Source: Verrucosispora sp. NA02020 (GTDB taxonomy: Bacteria; Actinomycetota; Actinomycetes; Mycobacteriales; Micromonosporaceae). Taken from it: DNA of 64,000 nucleotides. Below are positions 1-18,179 of this stretch, piece after piece. The position numbers and the translations under genes were made by a program. How positions within the stretch are numbered: the first letter of the stretch is position 1; every line of letters begins with the position of its first letter. The notes under the pieces are model-generated. The model was given only the letters and a program-made list of their open reading frames with translations, was not told the origin of the DNA and searched no databases. The DNA lies in contig NZ_CP054923.1 in NCBI RefSeq assembly GCF_013364215.1, forward strand, positions 2,666,001 to 2,730,000. The letters run 5' to 3'.

Positions 1-1868
1 GCGAACGCGATCGGGTCGACGCGGATCGCCGCGATCGACCGGCGCAGTGGTGCCAGGTCGTCCACCATGAACCGGGGCCTGCCGCTGGCCTCCGTCAACT
101 CGACGTGCGCGGAGATCAGGCGTGCGCGGATTCCGACGGGCAGGTGGCCGCCAACCAGGTTATCGATCTGGGCGATCAGGTCGGCGGTGCGCTCCGGGGT
201 CGGTGGCTGTAGCCCGTACCCGACGACTAGCGCCTCGACGGTGCGGACGGCGCGGAACAGGTGGCCCTCCTCGGGGAGTTCCGCGCGGAGTTCCGCCGCT
301 TTCCGAGCGCACCAGTCCCGCATGCCACGGTCATCGCCCTCCCGTGGCCGCGCGGTGACCTTGACCGCGGGCAGCCCGAGTACCTCCGTCCGCCGGACAA
401 CCTCGTCGACGGCGTCGTGCTGGAAGCTGGTTAGTAGCACGCTGTGCCCGACGTTGCCGGCCTCCTTGCGAAGCTGCGCCAGGCACTCCTGGATGGCGGT
501 GATCACGCGGGTCTTGCCGGTCCCGGGCGGGCCCTGGATGAGCGCGATGTCCGGAGTGTTGAGTGCGATCCGGACCGCGTCCTCCTGCTTGGAGGTGAAG
601 TCGTGGTACTTCCGAAAGGCGTGGAGCTCCCGAGGCTGGATCATCCGCATGGGCGCGGAGTACGAGGGCAGCAATTGGCCCTCGAGGATCGGCCCGAGTT
701 GGGGCATCGGGGTGCGCAGCTCCTCGATTAGTTTCCGGGCGTTTCGCTGGCGGTTGATCCGGACCCGGTCGCCCATCAGGCTCAGGTAGAGATCCCCGGT
801 CGGCGGCGGAGGGGTAGATTGCCGCCCCTGCGGTGCCTGGAGGGAGATGGTGCAGGCCGACTGGTTGATTTGCGTGATCCTGCCGCTGAACTCGGACGCC
901 GGTGGCCGGTCCTCCAGTTTCAACGTGTGGTCGCGCAGGCCGTCGGGCGCCCGGTCAGACGCGGCGAGGTCGTTCTCGTCGCCGAGCCGGGACAGGAACT
1001 CTCGCCCGCCGTTGGGGTCGAGGTGGAAGCGGTAGGTGCGGCTGTCCACCCGGCGGACCTGGAGGTACCGCGACACGCCGAGGGTGAAGGCCCGCTCGAC
1101 GACCTGCCGACGTTCCTTCTCGCTGTATTCATCCCAGCGGTTGAGATACTGGCGGCCGCTGCTCAGCAGCTCGGTGAACTCGGTGTGATGCCGCTCCCGG
1201 AAGGTGCCGGCAAAGGTCTCGTCACGGAACGAGGCACCCGCCTCGACCAACGTCAGGGCGACGGCCGTGCGGTCGGCCCGGTTGGCCCACCGCACCGTAC
1301 GCAGCCACAGCCGACCGTCCCGGCTCTCGACATGCGCCGTGATCCTCGACCCGTGTAGTCGGAATCCCTGGTCAAAGCTCACCGCGCGTTCGGGCGCTGC
1401 CGATGCGAGGAACCGGGGTGCGCGATTCGTCCCGGTGGGGGCCGCGACCAGGAACTCGTCGGCCAGCCACTTCGTTGCCTGATCGACGCGCCGCCGACCA
1501 GACAGCAACCGGGCCAACGCCTGGAGGCTGTGGTCGTCGAGACCGATCACCAGGTCCCGATCCCACCGGACGTGATGGGCGAAGCGGTGCACCTGTACGG
1601 TGATCGTGTCGTCTCCGACCCTGCTCACCCAGGCGACCCGTGCCCCGCCGCTGTCGAGGACCTCGTCCAGGTGGTCCTGGTCGGCTGGTCCATGGCCCTC
1701 AACCGGCCAGACGCCCTTGTCCACGACGAGCATGGCCGCACTGCTGGCCCGCGATGTGCGCAGCGTCGCCTCGTGACCGATCTTGACTGAGTTGCCGGAA
1801 AGCGCCTGGTCGAGCGGCTTCAGGACGATGCTCGTCGTCGCGCCGCATTGGAGATCCTGGAGCCTCAC
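1..1868 (-). CDS. SF1 (DNA2/NAM7-like) helicase, C-terminus cut by window edge
   Basis: Reading the minus strand from a GTG at 1866-1868 gives an open frame running off the window (about 622 residues seen). The GTG shares the bases GTGA with the stop of the kinase gene upstream, so translation is coupled. Residues about 1-420 form a beta-rich region I do not recognise. A Q-motif-like TSKQEDAVRIAL precedes Walker A GPPGTGKT near residue 445, followed by LLTSFQHDAVDEVVRR, which is typical of the AAA_11/UPF1-like superfamily 1 helicases; motifs after that lie outside the window. Function inferred: ATP-driven DNA or RNA unwinding. As last gene of the vWA-PP2C-kinase set it is the likely nucleic-acid effector, possibly controlled by phosphorylation. 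Helicase class is secure; role is inference. Confidence 0.85.
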   Translation of the reverse strand, partial: MRLQDLQCGATTSIVLKPLDQALSGNSVKIGHEATLRTSRASSAAMLVVDKGVWPVEGHGPADQDHLDEVLDSGGARVAWVSRVGDDTITVQVHRFAHHVRWDRDLVIGLDDHSLQALARLLSGRRRVDQATKWLADEFLVAAPTGTNRAPRFLASAAPERAVSFDQGFRLHGSRITAHVESRDGRLWLRTVRWANRADRTAVALTLVEAGASFRDETFAGTFRERHHTEFTELLSSGRQYLNRWDEYSEKERRQVVERAFTLGVSRYLQVRRVDSRTYRFHLDPNGGREFLSRLGDENDLAASDRAPDGLRDHTLKLEDRPPASEFSGRITQINQSACTISLQAPQGRQSTPPPPTGDLYLSLMGDRVRINRQRNARKLIEELRTPMPQLGPILEGQLLPSYSAPMRMIQPRELHAFRKYHDFTSKQEDAVRIALNTPDIALIQGPPGTGKTRVITAIQECLAQLRKEAGNVGHSVLLTSFQHDAVDEVVRRTEVLGLPAVKVTARPREGDDRGMRDWCARKAAELRAELPEEGHLFRAVRTVEALVVGYGLQPPTPERTADLIAQIDNLVGGHLPVGIRARLISAHVELTEASGRPRFMVDDLAPLRRSIAAIRVDPIAF

Positions 1869-3256
1869 TGTCGACCCCCCGGGTCCGTCGCGAAGCACAG
1901 CCAGCGGTTCGGGCGGCCCAGCCGGGCGAGCCGGAGGCTCCACATCTCGCCCGCCCTGCCGGCCCGGATGCTTGCCACCTTCTCATGCGGCAACGTGTGG
2001 AACTTACCGCCGTCTGGAGCGACGAGCTCGATCGCACGGCCGGCGTAGTTGCCGATCTTCATGTGGTCGCCCTCCCAGCGGAGCTGGAGCATTAGCCGGT
2101 CGGGGTCGGCCACCCGGCCGAGCACGAATCCGCGCGACACGCGGAGTTCGTCGCCCTGGACGGTGACCAGCTCACCCCGGTCTGCGACGGGCGGTCGGGA
2201 GTGGTCCGGTGTCATGCCATCGGGAAGATCGAGCAGCAGTCGAACGTGCAGGGTGGGCGGGCGGGGAGCCTCGTCGCACCATGGGCAACGCTCCACCGAA
2301 AGGTCAAGCTGGTACGTCAGGCCACACGCCGGGCAGGGCACGACGGACGTGCCGGCGTCGCGCAGGGCATCAGCCCATCGCCCGGCGCCAGGTCTCCGGT
2401 CGCGGCGCCGCAACCCGTCCACGAAGGTCGCCCGGAACATGCTCTCCAGAGCGGGAGGGAGCACTAGGCCGCGCGGTTGGATACCCCTGGTCGACACGTT
2501 GGAACGGTCGGTCGGATGGTCGACCCAGGGGTAGGATCCGTTCAACGCCTCTGCCTCTGCCTCCTCGTCATCCTCGTAGAGTTCGTCGCCCACAAAGGGG
2601 TGGTCCAGGGTGAGCAGCTCGAAGGCGACGACCGTGAAGGCGAAGATGTCGCTGAGGCTGTCCGCCCAGCGGCCTGCGCCGGGACGCAGCTCCGGGGCCG
2701 AGTAGCGGCGGGTGTAGACGGGGCGTCCCCGGGCGCCGGCGTAGGAGACGTTGTCGGTGTCGATGAGCCACACCTGGTCGCGATCGAGCAGCTCGGAAAC
2801 GAAGATATTGCTCGGCGACGGATCCTGGTAGACGAGGCCCCGGGCGTGCAGTGTGGCGAGCACGTCGGCGAGCCGGGCGAGCAGGCTGAGTCGTCGCCTG
2901 AGCCCGCCGGTGTCGCGGTAGTGCTCGACTGCACGGGACCCTGCCGGAACGGAGGTCAACCTGCTCAGCGGGGTAAGGCCGTCGAGCAGGTCCATCACGT
3001 ACCCCACGTGTGGCGGTGCGAGGGTGTCGATCGGGCTAGCGATGGACAGACCATCGAGTGGCAGGCGGCGGAGCGCCTTCAGTCGTACCGCCCATTCGGC
3101 AGCCCGTTCGGACGTCGCTTCCCGGAGCACTTTGACTGCGTGCCGGCCCCCCTCGACCTCGTACACCGATCCCTGGCCGCCCCGACCCAGCTCGCGGACG
3201 AGCCTCAGTGTGGTGCCGTTCGCCGTGCGGACTTTACTCGGAAGGGTCAGTGACAT
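1865..3256 (-). CDS. Ser/Thr protein kinase with C-terminal zinc ribbon (TerY-P type)
   Basis: 463 residues. The N-terminal kinase domain (about 15-275) has the glycine loop ELGRGGQGSVYEV, Lys in HAVKVL, a catalytic loop VYQDPSPSNIFV (HRD replaced by YQD but Asp and Asn kept), DTD in place of DFG, and RRYSAPEL. It should therefore still bind metal and be active. A zinc-ribbon pair CPACG...CPWCD follows near residues 310-330, then a beta-rich C-terminal domain of about 110 residues. The ATG overlaps the end of the phosphatase gene by 10 bases and the stop overlaps the helicase GTG. Known of the family: vWA, PP2C and kinase genes occur as the TerY-P triad, proposed as a phosphorylation switch and reported in phage-defence screens. 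Substrate unknown; the helicase or vWA partner is a reasonable guess. Confidence 0.85.
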   Translation of the reverse strand: MSLTLPSKVRTANGTTLRLVRELGRGGQGSVYEVEGGRHAVKVLREATSERAAEWAVRLKALRRLPLDGLSIASPIDTLAPPHVGYVMDLLDGLTPLSRLTSVPAGSRAVEHYRDTGGLRRRLSLLARLADVLATLHARGLVYQDPSPSNIFVSELLDRDQVWLIDTDNVSYAGARGRPVYTRRYSAPELRPGAGRWADSLSDIFAFTVVAFELLTLDHPFVGDELYEDDEEAEAEALNGSYPWVDHPTDRSNVSTRGIQPRGLVLPPALESMFRATFVDGLRRRDRRPGAGRWADALRDAGTSVVPCPACGLTYQLDLSVERCPWCDEAPRPPTLHVRLLLDLPDGMTPDHSRPPVADRGELVTVQGDELRVSRGFVLGRVADPDRLMLQLRWEGDHMKIGNYAGRAIELVAPDGGKFHTLPHEKVASIRAGRAGEMWSLRLARLGRPNRWLCFATDPGGRQ

Positions 3257-3987
3257 GCCGACGCACCTCGATTCGTCCAGTGCAGGGCCAGCGTCTTGTC
3301 GTCGAAGTGACCGGGCGTCGGCCAGGCGCGCAATTCGGCGACGAGGCGACGGTGTCGTTCCGGGGGTGGCAGCGGCCTGAACTCCTGTTCCAAGTGATCG
3401 ATGAACGGGCCAAGCGACTCCGGGCGAAGGTCGTCAGCCACTCCGTCGGTGGCCAGCAAGACCCGGAATTCGCTGGGCGGCGACGGCAGCCACCGGCTGC
3501 GCCATAGCGGCCGGCGGCCGGGCAGACCCAGCGCGTCGGTCTCATTACCGAAGCCAGCCCGCTCGGTCACCAGCCGTTCGGTGGCGTGCCCAGAGCCGAA
3601 GGCGATCAGTCCGTCGCCGACCTGGCCTACCAGCACGCCTCCGGAGCGGTGGATGAGGGAGAGCATCACCGTGGTGCTGCACTCGGCCGGATCCCGGGGG
3701 GCCAGCTCGGCGCGCCAGTTGGTCTCGATGCGGGCGAAGAGGCGCGACGGGTCTGGTACCTCGTGGTCGGCGAGTCCCCGCACGGCCCGGTGTACCGCCC
3801 GGCACACCGCGACCGCGCCGAGTCGGCTGTGCGGCCGGGAACCTAGCCCGTCGGCGACGACGACCAGCGAGCCGAACCGCCCGTGGGTTCCCCACCAGGC
3901 GTCCTGCTTCGCAACATGGTGCCGGCGGTGCGCCGGCCCGCAGACCGAGGCGCCGAACCAGGTTCGAGTGGTTGGTCCCGTCCCCAC
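3247..3987 (-). CDS. PP2C-family protein phosphatase (TerY-P type)
   Basis: 246 residues from a GTG that lies one base after the stop of the vWA gene. PP2C landmarks in order: LVVVADGLGS (metal-binding DGxG, residue about 45), CSTTVML, VGQVGDG (about 120), LLATDGVADDL (about 175) and HFDDKTLAL near the end, matching the PP2C_2 Ser/Thr phosphatase fold with two-metal catalysis. No membrane segment or signal peptide, so cytoplasmic. It sits between the vWA and kinase genes with 1-base spacing and 10-base overlap respectively, so the three are made together. Inferred role: reverses phosphorylation made by the adjacent kinase. Confidence 0.88.
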   Translation of the reverse strand: MGTGPTTRTWFGASVCGPAHRRHHVAKQDAWWGTHGRFGSLVVVADGLGSRPHSRLGAVAVCRAVHRAVRGLADHEVPDPSRLFARIETNWRAELAPRDPAECSTTVMLSLIHRSGGVLVGQVGDGLIAFGSGHATERLVTERAGFGNETDALGLPGRRPLWRSRWLPSPPSEFRVLLATDGVADDLRPESLGPFIDHLEQEFRPLPPPERHRRLVAELRAWPTPGHFDDKTLALHWTNRGASACH

Positions 3988-3988
3988 G

Positions 3989-4657
3989 TCAGTCGATGAC
4001 GATGTCGGCCGAGCGGTCGGCGAGTGGCGGCGGTCGGAAGTCGAGCTCGCCGCCGGTCGCCTGCTGGCTGACGCTCATTGTCAGCCAGTCGAAGAACTCC
4101 ACGATGCGGTGGGCGTTCTCCGCGCGGACCACTCCCTCGGCGCCGGCGGTGGCGAACCGTTCGAGCACGTCCACCGCTTCCTCGTCGACGTCGTTGCCGA
4201 TGGCCACCGCGAATCTGGTCGCCTTCCTGGCTCTAGGTGCTCCGAGCAGTTGCTCCATGGCGCCTTCCCAGTCGTCGGTGGGGCGACCGTCGGAGGCAAG
4301 GACCAACACCGGCTTGGCGGAGCGTCCCGGCACCTGTGCCCGGTCCTCTAGCAGGTCACCGGCGATGCCGAGGGCCCGGCCGAGCGGAGTCGGCCCCTCG
4401 GCGGGCATGTCGCGCCACTTGAGGCTGCCAGCCGGGGTGAATGGCTGGTGGATCCGGGCGACACCCCCGAAGGTGATCACCGCAACGGTGATCTCGTAGG
4501 TTGCCTCACGCAGCTCGGTGAACGACCGGATCATTTCCCCGATGCTCCGGTTGAGTGTTTCGATCTTCGATTCGTGCGCCATGCTGCCGCTTACATCCGC
4601 CAGAATCAATACTGGCAGCGTGCGGGGCGTTGTGGTGACGAAATCCTTGAGGGGCAT
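3989..4657 (-). CDS. terY: von Willebrand factor A domain protein, TerY-like
   Basis: 222 residues from the ATG at 4655-4657, which has GAGGAT seven bases upstream; longer upstream readings lack coding character. The protein begins MPLKDF and reaches the MIDAS motif LILADVSGSM (DxSxS) at about residue 20, with further metal-site positions in GPTPLGRAL and LVLASDGRPTDDW. This is the short, free-standing TerY form without membrane anchor. vWA domains of this kind act as metal-dependent protein-binding scaffolds. It is the first gene of the four-gene set and probably the scaffold for the kinase/phosphatase pair. The gene symbol is by family resemblance. Confidence 0.82.
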   Translation of the reverse strand: MPLKDFVTTTPRTLPVLILADVSGSMAHESKIETLNRSIGEMIRSFTELREATYEITVAVITFGGVARIHQPFTPAGSLKWRDMPAEGPTPLGRALGIAGDLLEDRAQVPGRSAKPVLVLASDGRPTDDWEGAMEQLLGAPRARKATRFAVAIGNDVDEEAVDVLERFATAGAEGVVRAENAHRIVEFFDWLTMSVSQQATGGELDFRPPPLADRSADIVID

Positions 4658-5159
4658 TGGAATCCTCGGAGTCACGGAAACCAAGGCGGCGGAGGGCGCA
4701 TGGCATCCGAGGGGTTGGGCCGTAATCGTCGTTGGATAGTAGTGGCCCAACCGGAATGACTGCCACTGAGAAACTTGCCTGTCGGAATGCCGACACGAGT
4801 CTGGCGGGTCCGTCATGGTGTGTGCAGGGCGACGCCTTGGCACTCCGATGCTACCCAAATCAGGATCCAGTTTTGTCCAAATGCCATCGATGAGCTGCTG
4901 GCTACGCTCCACGCCGTCGATCCATGGCCGCCTTGATCATGCGGGTGCGTTTGCCGATGCCATCATGGGAGCCGGGCCAGCGATGCCGGGGAACCGTCAT
5001 TGGCCCGTTGGTCGTGCGCCTACAGAAAGGGGTCATGGCTGCGGGCGTGCCTGGAAGGGGACGTCGTGCACGACGGCGTCGCTGACCTACCGTAGCCCTA
5101 TCGGTCGTGCCCCGGGCAGGGCGCTGAACGCCGGGTCCATGGCAAGGAATTTCCACTGA
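4658..5159. other. Intergenic stretch upstream of the terY operon
   Basis: About 500 bases without a convincing gene. Several short frames exist on both strands but none has a good ribosome site or recognisable product. It should hold the promoter of the minus-strand terY operon; the only clear structure is the inverted repeat listed separately. It ends at the TGA target duplication of the insertion sequence. Confidence 0.5.
4713..4752. promoter_or_regulatory. Inverted repeat upstream of the terY operon
   Basis: GGTTGGGCC at 4713-4721 and its perfect complement GGCCCAACC at 4744-4752 are separated by 22 bases, 56 bases upstream of the terY start. No T run follows, so it is not an obvious terminator. 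Candidate operator or leader hairpin for the operon; inferred from position and symmetry only. Confidence 0.4.
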
Positions 5160-5220
5160 GCCATTTTCATCGTGACGGTGCAGGTCACGGGTGGTGCGGG
5201 AAGCCGGTGTCCAGGTAGGA

Positions 5221-5293
5221 CGAGGCTCCCGGTAAGACAGCAATCGACCAAGATCAGATGCCCCAACCGGGAGCCTCGCTGTGCTGTCTTACC
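5221..5293 (+). promoter_or_regulatory. Mutually exclusive hairpins around the transposase start
   Basis: Two perfect inverted repeats share their left side. CGAGGCTCCCGGT (5221-5233) pairs with 5266-5278, while GGTAAGACAGC (5231-5241) pairs with 5283-5293, just at and after the GTG start codon (5281-5283). The arms are interleaved, so both pairings cannot form together with full length. In RNA the second pairing would cover the start codon. Candidate translational switch limiting transposase made from outside transcripts; inferred from sequence. Confidence 0.5.
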
Positions 5294-6063
5294 CTGCCGC
5301 GATTCCGTTGTCCACCCGCAGCCTGAACCACCTCGCCGCCCTCATCCGAACCCGCCGCCAGCAGCGACGGTCCCGGTGGCGACGCCTCGCCCCCGGCCGG
5401 CAAGCCCTGCTCGCCCTTGCCCACTTGCGCAACGGCGACACCCTGGCCCGCCTGGCCGTCGGATTCGAGATCGGCGTCACGACGGCCTGGCGCTATGTCC
5501 GCGAGGCCATCGACCTGCTCGCCGCGACCGCCGGCGACCTGGCCACGGCCATGACCAGGATCCGGCTGCTCGCCTACGCGATCCTCGACGGCACCCTGAT
5601 CCCGATCGACCGGGTCGCCAACCAGAAGCCGTACTACTCCGGGAAGCACAAGCGTCACGGAGTGAACGTGCAGGTCATCGCCGATGCAGCCGGGCGTCTC
5701 GTCTGGGCCTCGGCCGCGCTGCCCGGCTCGACGCACGACCTGACCGCCGCCCGCGCCCACGGCATCATCGACGTCTTGACCAGCGCCGACGTGATGACCT
5801 TCGCGGACAAGGGCTATCAAGGCACCCACGGCAGCGTGCGCACCCCGTTCAAGCGGCGCCGCTTCCGGCCGAAGCTGTCATCCCGGCAGAGAGCCGTCAA
5901 CCGGGCCCACGCGAAGATCCGCGCTCGCGGCGAACGCGCGATCGCCACCCTCAAGACCTGGAAAATCCTGATCAAGCTGCGCTGCTGCCCACGCCGAGCG
6001 ACCGCGATCGTGCAAGCCATCCTCGTCCTGCACCACGTCGAAGCCGACCGCCACGCACGATGA
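5281..6063 (+). CDS. IS5-family transposase (HTH + DDE_Tnp_4)
   Basis: 260 residues from a GTG. The N-terminal third holds a helix-turn-helix region (HLRNGDTLARLAVGFEIG, about residues 42-60). The DDE catalytic fold follows: first Asp in ILDGTLIPIDR (about 103), then YYSGKHKRHGVNVQVIAD, second Asp in LPGSTHDLTAAR and DVMTFADKGYQG, and the acidic/basic C-terminal helix ARGERAIATLKTWKIL (Glu about 222). No frameshift or stop, so it looks active. The start codon sits inside an unusual set of competing inverted repeats (see 5221-5293). A shortened copy of the same family is at 43463-43735. Confidence 0.9.
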   Translation: MLSYPAAIPLSTRSLNHLAALIRTRRQQRRSRWRRLAPGRQALLALAHLRNGDTLARLAVGFEIGVTTAWRYVREAIDLLAATAGDLATAMTRIRLLAYAILDGTLIPIDRVANQKPYYSGKHKRHGVNVQVIADAAGRLVWASAALPGSTHDLTAARAHGIIDVLTSADVMTFADKGYQGTHGSVRTPFKRRRFRPKLSSRQRAVNRAHAKIRARGERAIATLKTWKILIKLRCCPRRATAIVQAILVLHHVEADRHAR

Positions 6064-6076
6064 AAAGAGTGGCTGA

Positions 6077-6994
6077 TCATGTTCCGGAGGCCATGTAGGC
6101 GGCGAGGATGTAGTTGGGGTGGCGGTCGAGGTTCTTGCGGGCGCGGTCGTAGCGCATGGTGGTGCGCGGGTCGGCGTGGCGAGCGGCGATCTGCACGTCG
6201 CGGAGGCTGACGCCGGCGTCGACCATGGTCGTCACGAACGTGTGGCGCAGCATGTGCGGGTGCATCCTCGGCATCCGGATCCCTGCGGCGTGGGCGAGGT
6301 GTTTGAGTCGGCGGGTGGCGGCGTGCCGGTCCATCCGCCCACCATGGATGTTGCGCAGGATCGGCCCGGCGTTGCGGTCGTCGACGGCCCGGTCGATGGC
6401 TCGGGCCACGGCTGGCGGTAGTGGGACGAGGACGACCTTGCCGCCTTTACCGCGTACGCGTAGGACCCGGTGGCCGTGTTCCTCGCCGAGGTCGGTGATG
6501 TTCGCCCCGCAGGTTTCGAAGATCCGCAGCCCGAGCAGGCCCAGGAGCGCGACCAGGGCGAAGTCGTTCGGGTTCGAGGAGTTGCGAGCGGTGGTGATCA
6601 GGGCTTCGAACTGTAGGTGCCCCAGTCCGAGGGTCGGTGATTCGGCTGGCACGGTGGGTCGGCGGACGTAGTCGGCCGGTGAGTGCTCCAGGATGGCGTC
6701 GATGACGCAGACCCGGTAGAAGCCGACCACGACGGACAGCCGACGGGAGACGGTCGAGGGCTGGTACCGGCGGATGTCTTGCAGCGATCGCACGTACCGC
6801 TCGATGTCCACCCGCGCCGTAGTGAGCGGGTCCAGGTCGTGGTCGGCGCACTAGCGCAGGAAGACACGTAGGTCGGACTCGGTGTGCACGCGAGTCTGGC
6901 CGCGGTAACGGCCCAGGAAGGCCGACACCGCGGCGCGCACAACGAGTTGATCGGCCGGTACCACAGGAGACGCGGAAGCAGGAGAGGTAGCCAT
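6077..6994 (-). pseudogene. Tyrosine recombinase/integrase broken by an in-frame TAG
   Basis: From the ATG at 6992-6994 the frame reads an integrase N-terminal SAM-like domain up to SDLRVFLR, then TAG (6851-6853), then continues in the same frame with CADHDLDPL and the full catalytic domain to the TGA at 6077. The TAG most simply replaces a TGG Trp codon. The catalytic part keeps LLGLRIFE (first Arg), HMLRHTF (HxxR), ARHADPRTTMRYD (His and nucleophile Tyr). A GTG at 6811 could start a shortened protein lacking the N-terminal arm-binding half, which would probably not recombine normally. Evidence of a decayed mobile element next to the defence-like genes. An IS has landed directly behind it. 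Confidence 0.8.
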
Positions 6995-11339: not shown

Positions 11340-14300
11340 ATGTTTGCTGGCTGCCGCGGGGGCACCGCATTTGACCGTTTTGGCGTACGTGGAAGGGTCA
11401 GGGCGGGAGTTCTGGCGGTGGCGGTGCTGGCGGCGTTGCTGCCGGTGGTGCAGGTGCGGGAGCCGGCGGCGGCTGCTGCGCCGGCCTTAGCGCCGGGTGA
11501 TTCGGCGTCGGTGGCGAGTCGCGGTTTGCGGCAGGTGGAGCAGGGCCCGGATCCGGACGATGAGCATGCGGTGACTGAGCCGTTGCCGGAGGCGGAGTTC
11601 CCGGCCGGTGGTGAGACGGTGCTCGATCTTCAGGACGCGGCCGCTGCGCGGCAGGCGTTCGGTGTGACCGTGGCGCAGGCAGGCGACAGTGTGGCGGGGC
11701 GTGGTGTCGCCGTCGATGAGGTCGGTGCGGTGCGGGTGCGGGCGTTCGACCGGGCGGCGTCGGTGGCGTTGGGTAATGCGGGTCCGTTGTATTCGTTGGC
11801 GCGGGCGGACGGGTCGACGGCCACTGGTGCGGTGCGGGTGGAGATCGACTATTCGGGTTTCGCGCAGGCGTTCGGTGGTTCGTTCGCGGATCGGTTGACC
11901 TTGGTGCGGTTGCCGGAGTGTGCGGCGTCGACGCCGGAGGTGCCGGAGTGTTCGGCGGGTCCGGTCTGGGTGTCGTCGGTGAACGATCCGCATGCGCAGA
12001 AGCTGACGGCGGTGGTGGACGTCGGTGGTGACCCGAGCGGTGCCGGTGGTCGCACTGGGGTGTTCTCGGGATTCGCGACGGACAGTGCGGTGGCGTCGGC
12101 GGGCGTGTACGCGTTGGCGGCGTCGGCGTCGGGTGGGTCGACGGGGTCGTACACGGCGACTGACTTGAAGGAGTCGGGTTCGTGGCAGGTGGGGGAGAGC
12201 GCGGGGTCGTTCTCGTACTCGTATCCGTTGCCGGAACCGCCGCTGCCGTACGGACGTGCGTTGGGGCTGGGATTGTCGTACAGCTCGTCGGCGGTCGACG
12301 GAATGACCCACGGGACGAACAACCAGTCGGGCCCGGTGGGCTTGGGTTGGTCGTACACGCCGGGGTTCATTGAGCGGGCGTACAAGCCGTGTCCGGCGCA
12401 TCCGACGGAGATGTGTTGGGAGTCGCCGGACGACCATGATGGTGAGGCGGCCACCACCGATCAGGGCTCGGCGTTGATGACGATCTCGTTGCAGGGCCAG
12501 TCGACGCACATCGTGAAGACCACGACCGGGGTGTGGAAGACCGTCGATGACCTGGGTTGGCGGGTGGAGTTCCTTCCCGGTGGTGCGGAGGACGACGGCT
12601 ACTGGAAGGTGTGGACGCAGGACGGCACGGAGTACCGGTTCGGGTTCGAGCGGGATTCGGTGTGGAAGATGTCGTTCCTGGGCGATGAGGCGGGGGAGCC
12701 GTGTCATGGCTCGTATCCGGGTTCGTGTCGGGATCCGTGGCGGTGGAACCTGGACCGGGTTCGGGACGCGAATGAAAACGACACGGTGCTGTCGTGGACG
12801 CGGGAGACGAACCATTACAAGCGGGCGTTGACCGGGTCGGTGTTGGAGTACGACCGTGGTGGCTACCTGTCGGAGATCCAGTACGCGAAGAACTCGACCG
12901 AGGCGGGTGCGGTCCCGGTCGGCCGCACGGTGCTCAGTTGGGCGAGCCGGTGTGTGGAACGCACCGCCGAGGACGACCCGTTGAACAACACGCCGGCGGC
13001 GTGTCCGTCGATGTCGTCGAGCCCGTCGTCGTATCCGGACGTACCTGCTGATCTGAGTTGTGGGTCGTCGTCGTGCGGCAACTACAGCCAGTCGTACTTC
13101 ACCAGCCGGATCCTCGATCGGGTGACGTCGTATCAGTGGAACGCGGGTGCGGCGGCGTGGAACAACGTCGGTCGGGTGCAGTTGTCGTACAAGGTGATCA
13201 ACCCGCCGGGGCTCACGGAGCGGGTGTTCATCCTGGACTACATCCGGCCGGTGGGGTTGATCGGCGCGGACGCGAACAAGATCGATCTGCCGCCGGTGAA
13301 CTTCGACTACGTCGACGGGGTGCAGCCGGACTACCGGGACGGCCGGGTCGACTACGACGAGGCCGGGTTGGGCGTGTCGGCGATGCGGATGCCACGGCTG
13401 CTCGTGGCCCGTAACGGCATGGGCGGCCGTACCGAGGTCACCTACGGCACGCAGCGGCCGTGTCCGCAGGGCGGGTCGAACCAGTCGGGCTACACCACCT
13501 GGCACAACAGCAAGCAGGGCAACTGGGACGTCAACACGCAGGACTGCTACCCGATCTTCCACACCCCACCCGGCGCGGACCCGGGCTTCGGGATCTTCCA
13601 CAAGTATCTGGTCAAGAAGGTCGTGGTGAAGGACCAGGTGGGTGGCTCACCGGACCAGGTCACCCAGTACGACTACTCCGTCGGCACCCCGGCCTGGAAG
13701 ACCCCCCACAGCCCGCTGATCGCCGACGAACACGAGACGTGGAACCTGTTCGCGGGCTACAACAAGGTCCGTGTCGTGCAGGGCTCAGGCACGGACCCGT
13801 CGAAGTACACGGTGTCGACGTCGACGTTCTTCCGCGGCATGTACCACGACTACTACGACCCCGGCAGCGGCGGCGGCCTCAAGGAAACCACCGTCACCGA
13901 CTGGGCCGGCAACACCTACGACGACCACTACGCACGCGCCGGACGGGTCCTGCAGACCCAGCAGTACCGAATGACCACCTACAACGCCAACCCCGCCAAC
14001 GCCTCCTACACCGAGGTCGGCAGCACCCGCTACGACCACGTCATCCAGGGCAACCTCAACGGCCCCGGCTGGTGGAACCCCCGCCAGGTCCGCGTCGGCC
14101 TGGAGAACCACCGCGTCAAACTCGAGGACGGCAACTGGCGGGAGACCTCCCAGCACACCGTCTACGACGCGACATACGGCCTACCAGTACGTTTCCACCA
14201 GTACCACCAGACCGGCGTCGCCGACAACATGTGCACCTCCTACACCTACGCCCGACGCAACGAGCCAGGCTCCTTTTACCTGGTCAACTACCCGGAACGG

Positions 14301-17300
14301 GTCGAGACCTGGTCCGGCGACACCTGCGGCTCAGGAACACTCCTGTCGCGCACCGTCACCTTCTACGACACCTACACCGTCGAAGGCTCCCAGACACCGT
14401 TCGACGGCAACGTCGCCGAGGTCCGCACCTACCACAGCCCGACCAGCTTCGTGTCTACTGGTCGGAGCACCTTCGACAACACGGGTCGACCGATCACCTC
14501 GACGGACTCGGCAGGGCTGACCACCACGACCAGTTACAGCCCGGCGGTGAACTGGCCGGACAACGGAATCACCAGCACGGTCGGTGGCGGCTTCAACCAC
14601 GCCACCGTCACCCTGGTAGACCGGCACACCGGGCAGCCCTCACAGATCAGAGACCCGAACGGCAAGGTCACCGACCTCGTTTACGACCAGGTCGGCCGGC
14701 TCGCCGAGGTGTACCTGCCCGGGCAGGCCAAGTCATCCGGGGTGCCATCGCTGCGGTTCAGCTACCAGATCACCTCCAGTGGCACCGGCCAACCAACCGC
14801 ACCCTCCCGCACCAGGACCGAAACGCTGCGTTCCCACAGCGGCAGCCCTGTGTTCTTGAACTCCTACCAGTACGTCGATGGTCTCGGCCGAGCCAGGGAA
14901 ACCCAACAACCCGGCCCGAACGGCGGACGCATCGTCGCCGCCACCACCTACGACGCCCGCGGCAACGTCGCTGCCACCACCGACCGCTTCCACAACAGTT
15001 CCGCAGCCGGTGCCGGACTGGTCAACCCGAACCTGACCGCTGTCCCCGCTGTCCGCGAGACCACCTACGACCACCTCAACCGGGCAACCGTCGAGGTCGA
15101 CAAGAAACTCGGCACCGCCTGGCGGCAGAGCACCGCGACCTACTACGGCGACCGCGTCATGGTCGTGCCCCCGGCCGGGGGCACCAAAACCGTCAGCCAC
15201 CTCGACGTACGCGGCAACGTCACGCGCCTGGACGAGTACACCTCAGCCACCAACCCGAACACCCACCAGAGCACCACCTACACCTACGACCTCCTCGACC
15301 AACTCACCGCCGTAGTCGACCCGGCCGGCAACACCTGGACCCACACCTACGACCTCGCCGGCCGTCTCACCCAGAAGGCCGACCCGGACGCAGGCACCAG
15401 CAGCACTCACTACGACGCTGCCGGCCGACTCTCCTACACCATCGACGGCCGCGGACAGAGAATCTCGGCCCAGTACGACGGCAAGTCCCGGACCATCGGC
15501 CGCTGGGCCGGCGACGTCGGCACCGGCACCCGATTGGCGAGTTACGTCTACGACAGCCTCGCCAAGGGACAGCTGACCTCGTCCACTCGCCACGACATCG
15601 GCGGCAACTACACCACCACCGTCACCGGGTACACGGACCGCTACCTGCCCACGGGTACCAGCGTCACCATCCCGGCAGCCGAAGGCGCCCTCGCCGGCAC
15701 CTACACCAACACACTCACCTACGACAAAGCCGGAAACGTCACCACCAGCACCCAGCCAGCCATCGGTGGACTACCCGCCGAAACACTGACCTTCGGCTAC
15801 GACAACAACGGCTACCCCACCACCATGACCGGCCTCGACACCTACGTCGCCGCCACCAGCTACTACGCCCACGGCCCCACCCACCAACTCCTCCTCGGCG
15901 CCACCGGCAAACGGGTACGCCTCACCCAAACCATCGACCAGCAGACCGGACGCCTCGACGCCACCAACATCGACCTCGAAGACAGCCCCGGCACCTTCAC
16001 CAGCAAGTACGCCACCGGCTACCGCTACGACGCCATCGGCAACATCACCTCGATCCTCGGCAGCACCGACGGCACCGCCGACCAGATCGAATGCTTCCGC
16101 TACGACCCCCTCCGCCGACTCACCACCGCCTGGACCGGTAACACCCCTACTGCCACCGCCTGCGACCAAACACCGCAACGAGGCGGCAGCATCGACCCCT
16201 ACTGGCGCTCCTGGGGATTCGACACCGTCGGCAACCGCACCACCCAAACCGACCACAATCCCGCCGGCAACACCACCTGGACCTACGCCTACCCCAACCC
16301 GGGCGCCAGCCGACCCCACGCCGTCACCAGCATCACCGCCACCGGCCCCCTCGCCACCACACCGACCCGGTCCTACACCTACGACACCGCCGGAAACACT
16401 CTCACCCGCCACACCGACAGCGGAGTGGCGCAGCAACTGGCGTGGGATGCCGAAGGTCGCGTCGACACCCTCAGCGAAGGCAGTGACGAGACCACCTACA
16501 TCTATGACACCGCAGGCAACCGGCTGATCAGCCGCGGTCCTGACAAAGCCACCCTCTACCTCGGCGCCACGGAACTCACACTTCCCGCCGGCGCCACCCA
16601 GACTGACGGAACCCGCTACTACAGCGCCGCCGACGGCATCATCGCGGTTCGCACACACACCGGCCTCGTCTGGAGCGCAGGTGACCACCACGGCACCGAG
16701 CAGATCCAAATCAAGGCCGACAACCTGACCACCACCCGCAAGCGACTCCTGCCCTACGGAGAAGATCGCACCACGCCACCCTCCATTTTCCTCGGCACTC
16801 GGGGATTCGTCGGCGGCACCCAAGATGACACCGGTCTCACGCACCTCGGCGCCCGAGAATACGACCCCACAATCGGTCGATTCATCAGCGTCGACCCCAT
16901 CCAAGACCTCGCAGACCCACAACAATGGAACGGCTACAGCTACGCCAACAACAACCCGACCAGCTTCAGCGATCCCACCGGCCTCTACGCCATCGGCGAC
17001 CACGGAGGCAACCTCCGCGACTACAGCCCCAAACCCGGCAAGCACAAGATCGTCGACCACCGCCAACCCCACGAGAAGCGCCACAAGCCGCCCCGAGAGC
17101 CCGAAAGGACGCAGCCGAAGGGCGGCGGCGGGAAAGACCCGGAACGCGCGCGTAAAGCTGCCAAGGACGCCTTCCTGCAGACCTACACCGAAGACAACCT
17201 CGCCTGCCGCGCCCACCGCAGCACCTGCTCCGCCATGCGAGACGCCGTCATGAATGGCTACGACCCCATCAAGGCCGAAATCCAGGTCCAATGCGGCGAC

Positions 17301-18179
17301 TTCAGCTACGATCGATTCGCCTGCATGAACAGCCTCGGCTGGGAATGGGACTGCGGCGTCGCCCCCTGCCCAGAGTCCTGGATCTACAGCTGGGAACTCG
17401 CACTAGCCGCCACTGACGCCATAGCGATCATGGCCACCGTCAAAGCCATCCGGCATCTGTGCAGCTTCAGCCCCGAAACCCACGTCCTCCTCGCCGACGG
17501 CACCACCAAACCCATCAGCCAACTACTGGTCGGCGACGAAGTCTTAGCAACTGACCCGAAGTCCGGTGAGAGCGGGAAACGGCGGGTCACGCACGTGTGG
17601 GTCCACGAAGATGACGTCCGCACCCTCGGCGTTGATGGAGCCACCCTCGCCACAACCGAAGATCACCCCTTCTGGAATGAGACGGACCGAGAGTGGCAGC
17701 AGGCAGCGGCACTCGAGCCCGGCCACCGGCTTTCTAGTCCTTCGGGTGAAGTAGCGGCGGTCACCGAGAGAGTATCGTTGACCGGCTGGCGCGCCCTCGC
17801 CTACAACCTCACGATCGCAGACATCCACACGTACTATGTGCTCGCTGGCAAAACCCCGGTGCTGGTCCACAACACCTGTCCGGAAGCTGCCCGTCTTACT
17901 AGCAGCCCTAGCGTTCCGGTAATTAACAGCAAAACGGTGCACATGGACAAGAACGGCCGCTTCCGGATCGATGTCGAGAACCAGAATCCGGGACGCCCTG
18001 GCGCAAATATTCACCTTCAGCCCATGGGGCGCGGTGCCTCAGGTAAATACTACTATCATCAGAGCACGGGACAGTGGATTTCGGAAAGCGGAGAGGTGCT
18101 GGCGCCAAGGATTGCAAATCAGGTGCCGCGAAGTGCGATCAGTAAGGCTTATCAATATTTGGGGATTACGCCGCCGTGA
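11340..18179 (+). CDS. Secreted RHS-repeat polymorphic toxin with Hint domain
   Basis: 2279 residues. Residues about 20-45 form a signal-like hydrophobic stretch (VLAVAVLAALLPVV) after a basic start, so the protein is exported. Then come a long beta region and many RHS/YD repeats (TYDLAGRLTQKADPDAG, HYDAAGRLSYTIDGRG) to about 1800, which by analogy form a shell enclosing the toxin. The RHS core ends GAREYDPTIGRFISVDPI...NPTSFSDPTGLYAIGDHG (about 1835-1890). A Hint domain runs from CSFSPETHVLLADG (Cys about 2041) through TEDHPFWN to VLAGKTPVLVHNTC (about 2180); in such toxins it releases the C-terminus. The last 100 residues are the toxin tip, with NPGRPGANIHLQ and KYYYHQSTGQW, a class I cannot name. 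The tip is AT-richer than the rest. Third-codon usage changes near 13.4-13.9 kb. Confidence 0.92.
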   Translation: MFAGCRGGTAFDRFGVRGRVRAGVLAVAVLAALLPVVQVREPAAAAAPALAPGDSASVASRGLRQVEQGPDPDDEHAVTEPLPEAEFPAGGETVLDLQDAAAARQAFGVTVAQAGDSVAGRGVAVDEVGAVRVRAFDRAASVALGNAGPLYSLARADGSTATGAVRVEIDYSGFAQAFGGSFADRLTLVRLPECAASTPEVPECSAGPVWVSSVNDPHAQKLTAVVDVGGDPSGAGGRTGVFSGFATDSAVASAGVYALAASASGGSTGSYTATDLKESGSWQVGESAGSFSYSYPLPEPPLPYGRALGLGLSYSSSAVDGMTHGTNNQSGPVGLGWSYTPGFIERAYKPCPAHPTEMCWESPDDHDGEAATTDQGSALMTISLQGQSTHIVKTTTGVWKTVDDLGWRVEFLPGGAEDDGYWKVWTQDGTEYRFGFERDSVWKMSFLGDEAGEPCHGSYPGSCRDPWRWNLDRVRDANENDTVLSWTRETNHYKRALTGSVLEYDRGGYLSEIQYAKNSTEAGAVPVGRTVLSWASRCVERTAEDDPLNNTPAACPSMSSSPSSYPDVPADLSCGSSSCGNYSQSYFTSRILDRVTSYQWNAGAAAWNNVGRVQLSYKVINPPGLTERVFILDYIRPVGLIGADANKIDLPPVNFDYVDGVQPDYRDGRVDYDEAGLGVSAMRMPRLLVARNGMGGRTEVTYGTQRPCPQGGSNQSGYTTWHNSKQGNWDVNTQDCYPIFHTPPGADPGFGIFHKYLVKKVVVKDQVGGSPDQVTQYDYSVGTPAWKTPHSPLIADEHETWNLFAGYNKVRVVQGSGTDPSKYTVSTSTFFRGMYHDYYDPGSGGGLKETTVTDWAGNTYDDHYARAGRVLQTQQYRMTTYNANPANASYTEVGSTRYDHVIQGNLNGPGWWNPRQVRVGLENHRVKLEDGNWRETSQHTVYDATYGLPVRFHQYHQTGVADNMCTSYTYARRNEPGSFYLVNYPERVETWSGDTCGSGTLLSRTVTFYDTYTVEGSQTPFDGNVAEVRTYHSPTSFVSTGRSTFDNTGRPITSTDSAGLTTTTSYSPAVNWPDNGITSTVGGGFNHATVTLVDRHTGQPSQIRDPNGKVTDLVYDQVGRLAEVYLPGQAKSSGVPSLRFSYQITSSGTGQPTAPSRTRTETLRSHSGSPVFLNSYQYVDGLGRARETQQPGPNGGRIVAATTYDARGNVAATTDRFHNSSAAGAGLVNPNLTAVPAVRETTYDHLNRATVEVDKKLGTAWRQSTATYYGDRVMVVPPAGGTKTVSHLDVRGNVTRLDEYTSATNPNTHQSTTYTYDLLDQLTAVVDPAGNTWTHTYDLAGRLTQKADPDAGTSSTHYDAAGRLSYTIDGRGQRISAQYDGKSRTIGRWAGDVGTGTRLASYVYDSLAKGQLTSSTRHDIGGNYTTTVTGYTDRYLPTGTSVTIPAAEGALAGTYTNTLTYDKAGNVTTSTQPAIGGLPAETLTFGYDNNGYPTTMTGLDTYVAATSYYAHGPTHQLLLGATGKRVRLTQTIDQQTGRLDATNIDLEDSPGTFTSKYATGYRYDAIGNITSILGSTDGTADQIECFRYDPLRRLTTAWTGNTPTATACDQTPQRGGSIDPYWRSWGFDTVGNRTTQTDHNPAGNTTWTYAYPNPGASRPHAVTSITATGPLATTPTRSYTYDTAGNTLTRHTDSGVAQQLAWDAEGRVDTLSEGSDETTYIYDTAGNRLISRGPDKATLYLGATELTLPAGATQTDGTRYYSAADGIIAVRTHTGLVWSAGDHHGTEQIQIKADNLTTTRKRLLPYGEDRTTPPSIFLGTRGFVGGTQDDTGLTHLGAREYDPTIGRFISVDPIQDLADPQQWNGYSYANNNPTSFSDPTGLYAIGDHGGNLRDYSPKPGKHKIVDHRQPHEKRHKPPREPERTQPKGGGGKDPERARKAAKDAFLQTYTEDNLACRAHRSTCSAMRDAVMNGYDPIKAEIQVQCGDFSYDRFACMNSLGWEWDCGVAPCPESWIYSWELALAATDAIAIMATVKAIRHLCSFSPETHVLLADGTTKPISQLLVGDEVLATDPKSGESGKRRVTHVWVHEDDVRTLGVDGATLATTEDHPFWNETDREWQQAAALEPGHRLSSPSGEVAAVTERVSLTGWRALAYNLTIADIHTYYVLAGKTPVLVHNTCPEAARLTSSPSVPVINSKTVHMDKNGRFRIDVENQNPGRPGANIHLQPMGRGASGKYYYHQSTGQWISESGEVLAPRIANQVPRSAISKAYQYLGITPP

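Follow-up and report, generated by a model that had tools for sequence, protein, structure and literature searches.

Gene content and spacing of the locus

The stretch analysed here, referred to as the window, comprises 64,000 bases of the Verrucosispora sp. NA02020 genome (positions 2666001-2730000 of the 7.2 Mb contig NZ_CP054923.1), and it opens with four minus-strand genes encoding a vWA protein, a PP2C phosphatase, a Ser/Thr kinase and a superfamily 1 (SF1) helicase. All four lie where the initial annotation had placed them and their Pfam domains agree with it, as does the description of the first three as a TerY-P-type triad packed against the helicase. That annotation had however treated the four as a complete set. 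Four further genes follow past the window edge, so that the actual number is eight, and judged by sequence the first seven match a Type II CoCoNuT, with a CARF-HEPN gene as the eighth at the 3' end. A new four-gene triad-helicase system is ruled out by these additional genes and by the known type of the first seven.

The TerY-like vWA protein (3989..4657, 222 residues; Pfam VWA PF00092, 1.8e-9) contains the pieces of a metal-ion-dependent adhesion site (MIDAS), namely DVSGS (from residue 21), the T of GPTPLG (from 88) and the D of ASDGR (from 121). Its start at 4657 follows the initial annotation, and the open frame extends to 4912. The PP2C phosphatase (3247..3987, 246 residues; PP2C_2 PF13672, 2.3e-33) has kept four Asp residues of the metal-site motifs usual in this family (D29, D46, D181 and D229). 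The kinase (1865..3256, 463 residues; Pkinase, 1.1e-10) carries a C-terminal zinc ribbon and retains Lys42, Asp145, Asn150 and Asp166, the last three of which, like the ribbon cysteines 308/311/324/327, are the same in all 13 kinases aligned. Its YQD and DTD motifs, the catalytic Asp and Asn and the ribbon had all been read correctly before, but the motifs are no oddity: variation is normal among the aligned kinases, and the letters beside the catalytic residues read YGD in six and DAD in nine of the 12 relatives. In the predicted structure the kinase domain and the ribbon are good, and residues 339-463 have low confidence with no confident fold. The helicase gene, cnuH (1..1868, GTG start), encodes in the window the N-terminal 622 of 1085 residues of a UPF1-like SF1 protein (AAA_11, 9.6e-13 for the window part) and runs past the edge to contig position 2664611.

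Outside the window and on the same strand lie cnuE (contig positions 2663074-2664627), encoding a protein of 517 residues with a winged helix-turn-helix (wHTH) and a HEPN domain, cnuB (2660655-2663087; a coiled-coil McrB GTPase of the NxD type, 810 residues), cnuC (2658459-2660648; McrC-like with a zinc ribbon, 729 residues) and the gene of a Csm6-like CARF-HEPN protein (2657008-2658456, 482 residues). The starts of these four genes are our own choice. From the vWA gene onward the eight genes are separated by +1, -10, -4, -17, -14, +6 and +2 bases, and 325 bases then precede the next gene. The tight packing noted earlier for the first four genes was thus recovered, the -4 between kinase and helicase being a GTGA junction. 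Because the gaps range from -17 to +6 and are followed by 325 bases, the eight genes look like one transcript.

Relationship to Type II CoCoNuTs

According to the main text of Bell et al. (2024, PMC11090510), Type II CoCoNuTs combine a TerY-P triad with the UPF1-like helicase CnuH, CnuE, CnuB and CnuC. In this type CnuH has N-terminal SPB and RTL domains and a helical insertion after Walker A, and CnuE consists of an elongated wHTH region and one HEPN domain, with the motif RxxxxH in most cases. CnuB is an McrB GTPase that combines a coiled coil with the NxD motif, and CnuC is a relative of McrC with DUF2357, a zinc ribbon and an inactivated PD-(D/E)xK nuclease domain. The sequence-testable features of the type are present here, including the triad with its kinase-zinc ribbon, which is usual but not part of the core. 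The helicase partner, which had been considered possibly new, is therefore the CnuH of Type II CoCoNuTs and has already been described there.

In detail, a PDB profile search gave NAM7/UPF1 as the best matches of CnuH, and 330 residues separate its Walker A (446) from its Walker B (776), a length compatible with a helical insertion after Walker A. CnuE matches Pfam PF24409 and shows one RxxxxH, the HEPN Arg and His being present in 13 of 13 close relatives. Structure comparison of CnuE gave matches to HEPN-like folds with moderate Z, and neither a Foldseek search with the model (no significant match) nor a comparison with PDB sequences (nothing useful) added to this. CnuB has the motif SNHDE, the NxD being present in 13 of 13 sequences, and matches AAA_5 above cut-off (3.8e-5); its residues 51-400 are charged and poor in proline and glycine, suggesting, from composition only, a long coiled coil. 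CnuC contains five CxxC (zinc ribbon) and aligns with the Deinococcus CnuC at 28% identity (2e-52). DUF2357 is above cut-off in the Deinococcus protein and below it in the CnuC of G852, a genome of another genus of the family, and our own CnuC alone has no Pfam match. No clear ExK triad is visible in the aligned region of CnuC, as read from the letters only. An RtcR-type regulator at the 5' end is frequent but not defining, and no match to the Polaromonas RtcR was obtained in the window or in locus L002.

Published Type II systems thus share with this locus the vWA protein, PP2C, the kinase-zinc ribbon, CnuH, the wHTH-HEPN CnuE, the NxD CnuB and the zinc-ribbon CnuC. Among five plasmid records with CnuH three were examined, and the Polaromonas plasmid pPNAP01 and the Deinococcus plasmid p96k carry the seven genes in identical order; unlike here, neither operon has a CARF-HEPN gene, and in pPNAP01 a sigma-54 regulator and a DUF4258 gene lie upstream. 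In the main text of PMC11090510 several types of CARF protein are placed near Type II and III-A CoCoNuTs, CARF-D-ExK nucleases occurring with Type III-A; those of Type II are for the most part of the RtcR type and encoded at the 5' end, whereas here the CARF-HEPN gene is the last one. On p96k (L096, 15287-16750) CnuE stands at its usual place, but a count of the HEPN motif over 18 CnuE proteins found it absent in this Deinococcus protein, which lacks the Arg; this CnuE is perhaps inactive or a different effector.

Other assignments were rejected. A Type III-A CoCoNuT does not agree with the one RxxxxH of CnuE, instead of two HEPN, and with a zinc-ribbon CnuC having no Hsp70 match. Mokosh systems combine a helicase with a phospholipase-D (PLD) nuclease. 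Similarity to Mokosh is seen in CnuH (MkoA model, 1.7e-90) and in CnuE (N-terminus of MkoB, 5.6e-5), but the kinase and helicase genes are separate here, a HEPN nuclease takes the place of the phospholipase-D, and no PLD match was found in any of the eight proteins. Finally, the stand-alone TerY-P-like defence modules of Gao et al. (2020, as cited in the main text of PMC11090510) have vWA, PP2C and kinase in common with this locus; their kinase carries an OB-fold, in contrast to the zinc ribbon found here, where five further tightly spaced genes follow and a full CoCoNuT is present.

The pairing of the triad with the helicase was examined in related genomes. CnuH was found (E 1e-90 or better) in 14 of 354 genomes of the family, and vWA and kinase lie directly upstream in all 14 neighbourhoods, or in 16 of 16 when G412 and G366, which belong to another family, are added. 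Long CnuH matches occur in 18 genomes (14 of the family and four of the genus of G412), and the neighbourhoods cover 16 of them, without G1039 and G1059; the searches, at E 1e-30 or 1e-90, miss distant homologues. Two of the loci (L102, L103) are cut by a contig end on the 3' side, in G694 CnuH is split across two open reading frames (ORFs), and in G568, with a CnuH fragment of about 315 matched positions only, no triad was found. In the opposite direction, a kinase profile (E 1e-40), which is biased towards the CoCoNuT kinases it was built from, matched 11 of 280 family genomes, and CnuH adjoins the kinase in all 11. A scan of GTDB genomes with two very common peptide words gave at least 80 loci, many of which look like unrelated helicases. 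The kinase adjoins CnuH in 12 of the 13 examined (L008-L019 and L063, among which L010 is G283 again and L015 is another actinobacterium, Cryobacterium), the exception, L017, starting close to a contig start. The claim of a fixed helicase partner is hence borne out as far as the pairing is concerned, though not as a novelty: the helicase homologues did not occur mostly without the triad genes, nor did the triad usually lack the helicase, but the triad itself is usually reduced.

PP2C was found in only two of the 16 loci (our own and that of G852). In the other 14 (L006, L007, L089-L094 and L100-L105), which carry vWA and kinase, a profile of 14 CoCoNuT PP2C proteins, including both of the actinobacterial ones that it then recovered, gave nothing at E up to 1 among ORFs of at least 70 residues within the 11-20 kb fetched. 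In a 17th actinobacterial locus, that of Cryobacterium (L015), PP2C is present. Most relatives examined thus carry a vWA-kinase pair rather than the full triad, the PP2C arm being missing from the locus.

The CARF-HEPN gene

The eighth protein matches the corresponding PADLOC model (8.5e-182), NCBIfam TIGR02710 (98.4 bits, cut-off 83.9) and the Pfam Csm6 HEPN family, and its CARF and HEPN motifs are intact. It resembles the Csm6 of Thermus thermophilus (1.7e-13), one structure of which contains cyclic tetra-adenylate (cA4), and shares with the Csm6 of Type III CRISPR-Cas the CARF domain and a HEPN domain with an Rx4-6H motif. In contrast to the CRISPR proteins, it is found without Cas10 above the Pfam cut-off in all 28 family genomes that carry it, our own and 27 others. 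Weaker Cas10 matches exist in two carriers (24.0 and 22.7 bits against a cut-off of 27), and the best in our own genome reaches 18.6 bits; the model discriminates imperfectly, being above cut-off in five of 14 known genomes used as control, E. coli included. No SMODS nucleotidyltransferase was matched in our own genome, the single one searched, and both searches leave room for a divergent Cas10 and for other cyclases. With these results, dependence on a Type III CRISPR system or, in our own genome, on a SMODS nucleotidyltransferase was rejected.

Directly behind cnuC the gene is found in two of the 14 CoCoNuT genomes of the family, here with a 2-base gap and in G852 with an 11-base overlap; it was not found in the other 12 or in the loci of G412 and G366. 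Close CnuH or CnuE matches lie on 11 contigs of at least 17 kb, our own excluded, and at least five of these also carry the CARF-HEPN family among the 120 listed of 307 CARF-HEPN matches (contigs of 34195, 66073, 435206, 880720 and 32487 bases). Adjacency is established for the third, that of G852, and on the last two contigs the CARF-HEPN proteins are just 44% and 48% identical to ours.

Outside CoCoNuTs, 20 of the 26 CARF-HEPN loci were covered. In 15 of them (L106-L112, L114 and L117-L123) the next gene, in the same orientation, encodes another SF1 helicase, and in five cases the two share four bases; in one further locus a helicase lies 2.5 kb away on the opposite strand, and the remaining four lack one. 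Where whole, the partner helicases comprise about 1090 residues, one being a piece of 335 residues and one being split, and the three that were scanned match MkoA and UPF1-type models. Since no Cas10 above cut-off was found in the 28 carriers and a helicase is the neighbour in 15 of 20 loci, the usual company of this Csm6-like family in these bacteria seems to be a helicase and not a Type III CRISPR system. The two-gene unit of CARF-HEPN and SF1 helicase, in genomes without Cas10 above cut-off, is itself a candidate CRISPR-independent system.

In the parts of PMC3710099 consulted, CARF-nuclease proteins in a TerY-dependent system are already noted, and so is the coupling of HEPN (DUF4145) genes to a Ter system having an McrBC-like part. 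The main text of PMC11090510 mentions Csm6 once, as a CRISPR comparison, and contains neither Csx1 nor CARF-HEPN. A CARF-HEPN gene within a CoCoNuT was found neither there, where the supplement may show it, nor in titles and abstract beginnings elsewhere. The variant with a 3' CARF-HEPN gene is new by this measure, whereas the CoCoNuT kind itself and the pairing of the triad with CnuH are already known.

Predicted function and genomic setting

What is observed directly is the gene content, order and spacing, the catalytic motifs and the fact that other bacteria have kept the core genes. We consider it likely that the four genes of the window form the 5' half of one eight-gene operon, a Type II CoCoNuT extended by a 3' CARF-HEPN gene, the whole being a predicted RNA-cutting antiviral system; no experiment on the function of Type II CoCoNuTs was found in the literature. 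The function with the best support, as a prediction, is defence against viruses by RNA restriction, with a TerY-P phospho-switch in control. In such a system the coiled-coil GTPase CnuB, together with CnuC, would recognise nucleic acid linked to infection, and the vWA-PP2C-kinase triad would act on the complex as a phosphorylation switch. The UPF1-like CnuH might then move along RNA and hand it to its partner CnuE, the HEPN domain of which would cleave it. Such cleavage is expected to leave 2',3'-cyclic phosphates at the RNA ends. Either these ends or a cyclic oligonucleotide from some other source may occupy the CARF pocket of the eighth protein and turn on its HEPN RNase, so that local RNA cutting would become general and lead to growth arrest. 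The earlier proposal of the helicase as the effector is not supported, as two HEPN proteins are encoded downstream of it.

A real possibility is that the CARF-HEPN gene serves in defence independently and merely shares a transcript with the seven-gene CoCoNuT, complete in itself, that stands in front of it. Several observations weigh in this direction and against a single eight-gene system: 26 of the 28 family genomes with CARF-HEPN have it without a CnuH match, it stands directly before another SF1 helicase in 15 of the 20 such loci, and it is missing from Deinococcus, Polaromonas and 14 other CoCoNuT loci. An unconnected gene is however less easily reconciled with the 2-base gap here and the 11-base overlap in G852, or with the similar divergence of both proteins between these genomes (65% identity for CARF-HEPN, 57% for CnuH). 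Moreover, of the 11 contigs that hold a close CnuH or CnuE at least five, that of G852 included, also carry CARF-HEPN.

It is unlikely that invading DNA is restricted instead, as in Type IV restriction of modified DNA, with RNA cutting secondary or absent. CnuB and CnuC are relatives of McrBC, and some UPF1-like helicases act on single-stranded DNA according to the main text of PMC11090510, but the nuclease motifs recognised are all of the HEPN type, an RNase fold, and the same source describes the PD-(D/E)xK domain of Type II CnuC as inactivated. A role in DNA repair or in a tellurite or stress pathway rather than in defence is very improbable, even though TerY-P triads have reportedly been linked to tellurite resistance and DNA processing (Anantharaman 2012); the HEPN proteins, the CARF sensor, the flanking insertion sequence (IS) copies and the patchy distribution in 14 of 354 family genomes all argue against it. 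From the earlier proposal of phosphorylation-controlled defence or DNA repair, defence is thus retained as a prediction and repair is not.

Under the preferred reading of an eight-gene antiviral system, the locus represents a compact Type II version whose predicted parts, a sensor, a switch and two RNases, are all encoded by a single operon. It raises a testable question, namely what turns on a Csm6-like RNase where no Cas10 is detected in the genome. We can offer a speculative answer, namely a two-stage RNA alarm free of CRISPR, in which CnuE or another CoCoNuT part might make the ligand of CARF-HEPN and replace both Cas10 signalling and RtcR control; the pairs of CARF-HEPN and UPF1-like helicase could then represent a broader group of systems in which a helicase triggers a CARF RNase.

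The mobile elements reported beside the triad were found again. An IS copy with a DDE_Tnp_4 transposase of 260 residues (Pfam) lies at 5157..6065 on the plus strand, flanked by TGA on both sides (by eye), which suits simple insertion. An identical copy of 909 bases in the same orientation is located beyond the other end of the operon (contig positions 2654787-2655695). As the genome contains six identical copies, two of them in tandem elsewhere, this bracketing may be due to chance and a composite transposon is not claimed; bracketing and patchy distribution in the family suit a mobile defence island. By eye, the far copy touches the beginning of an ORF resembling glutamine synthetase and disrupts another with weak resemblance to DUF5677. 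The gene between this copy and CARF-HEPN has an open part of 330 residues (DUF5677, 21.1 bits against a cut-off of 27.1) and no BLAST counterpart in the other loci, and was kept out of the system. Next to the right copy, positions 6077-6811 hold a tyrosine-type integrase ORF (Phage_integrase, 244 residues) with an N-terminus that looks short by eye. Further along the window, an ORF of 2279 residues (11340-18179) shows RHS-like YD repeats and, near its C-terminus, a HINT/intein-like stretch (by eye).
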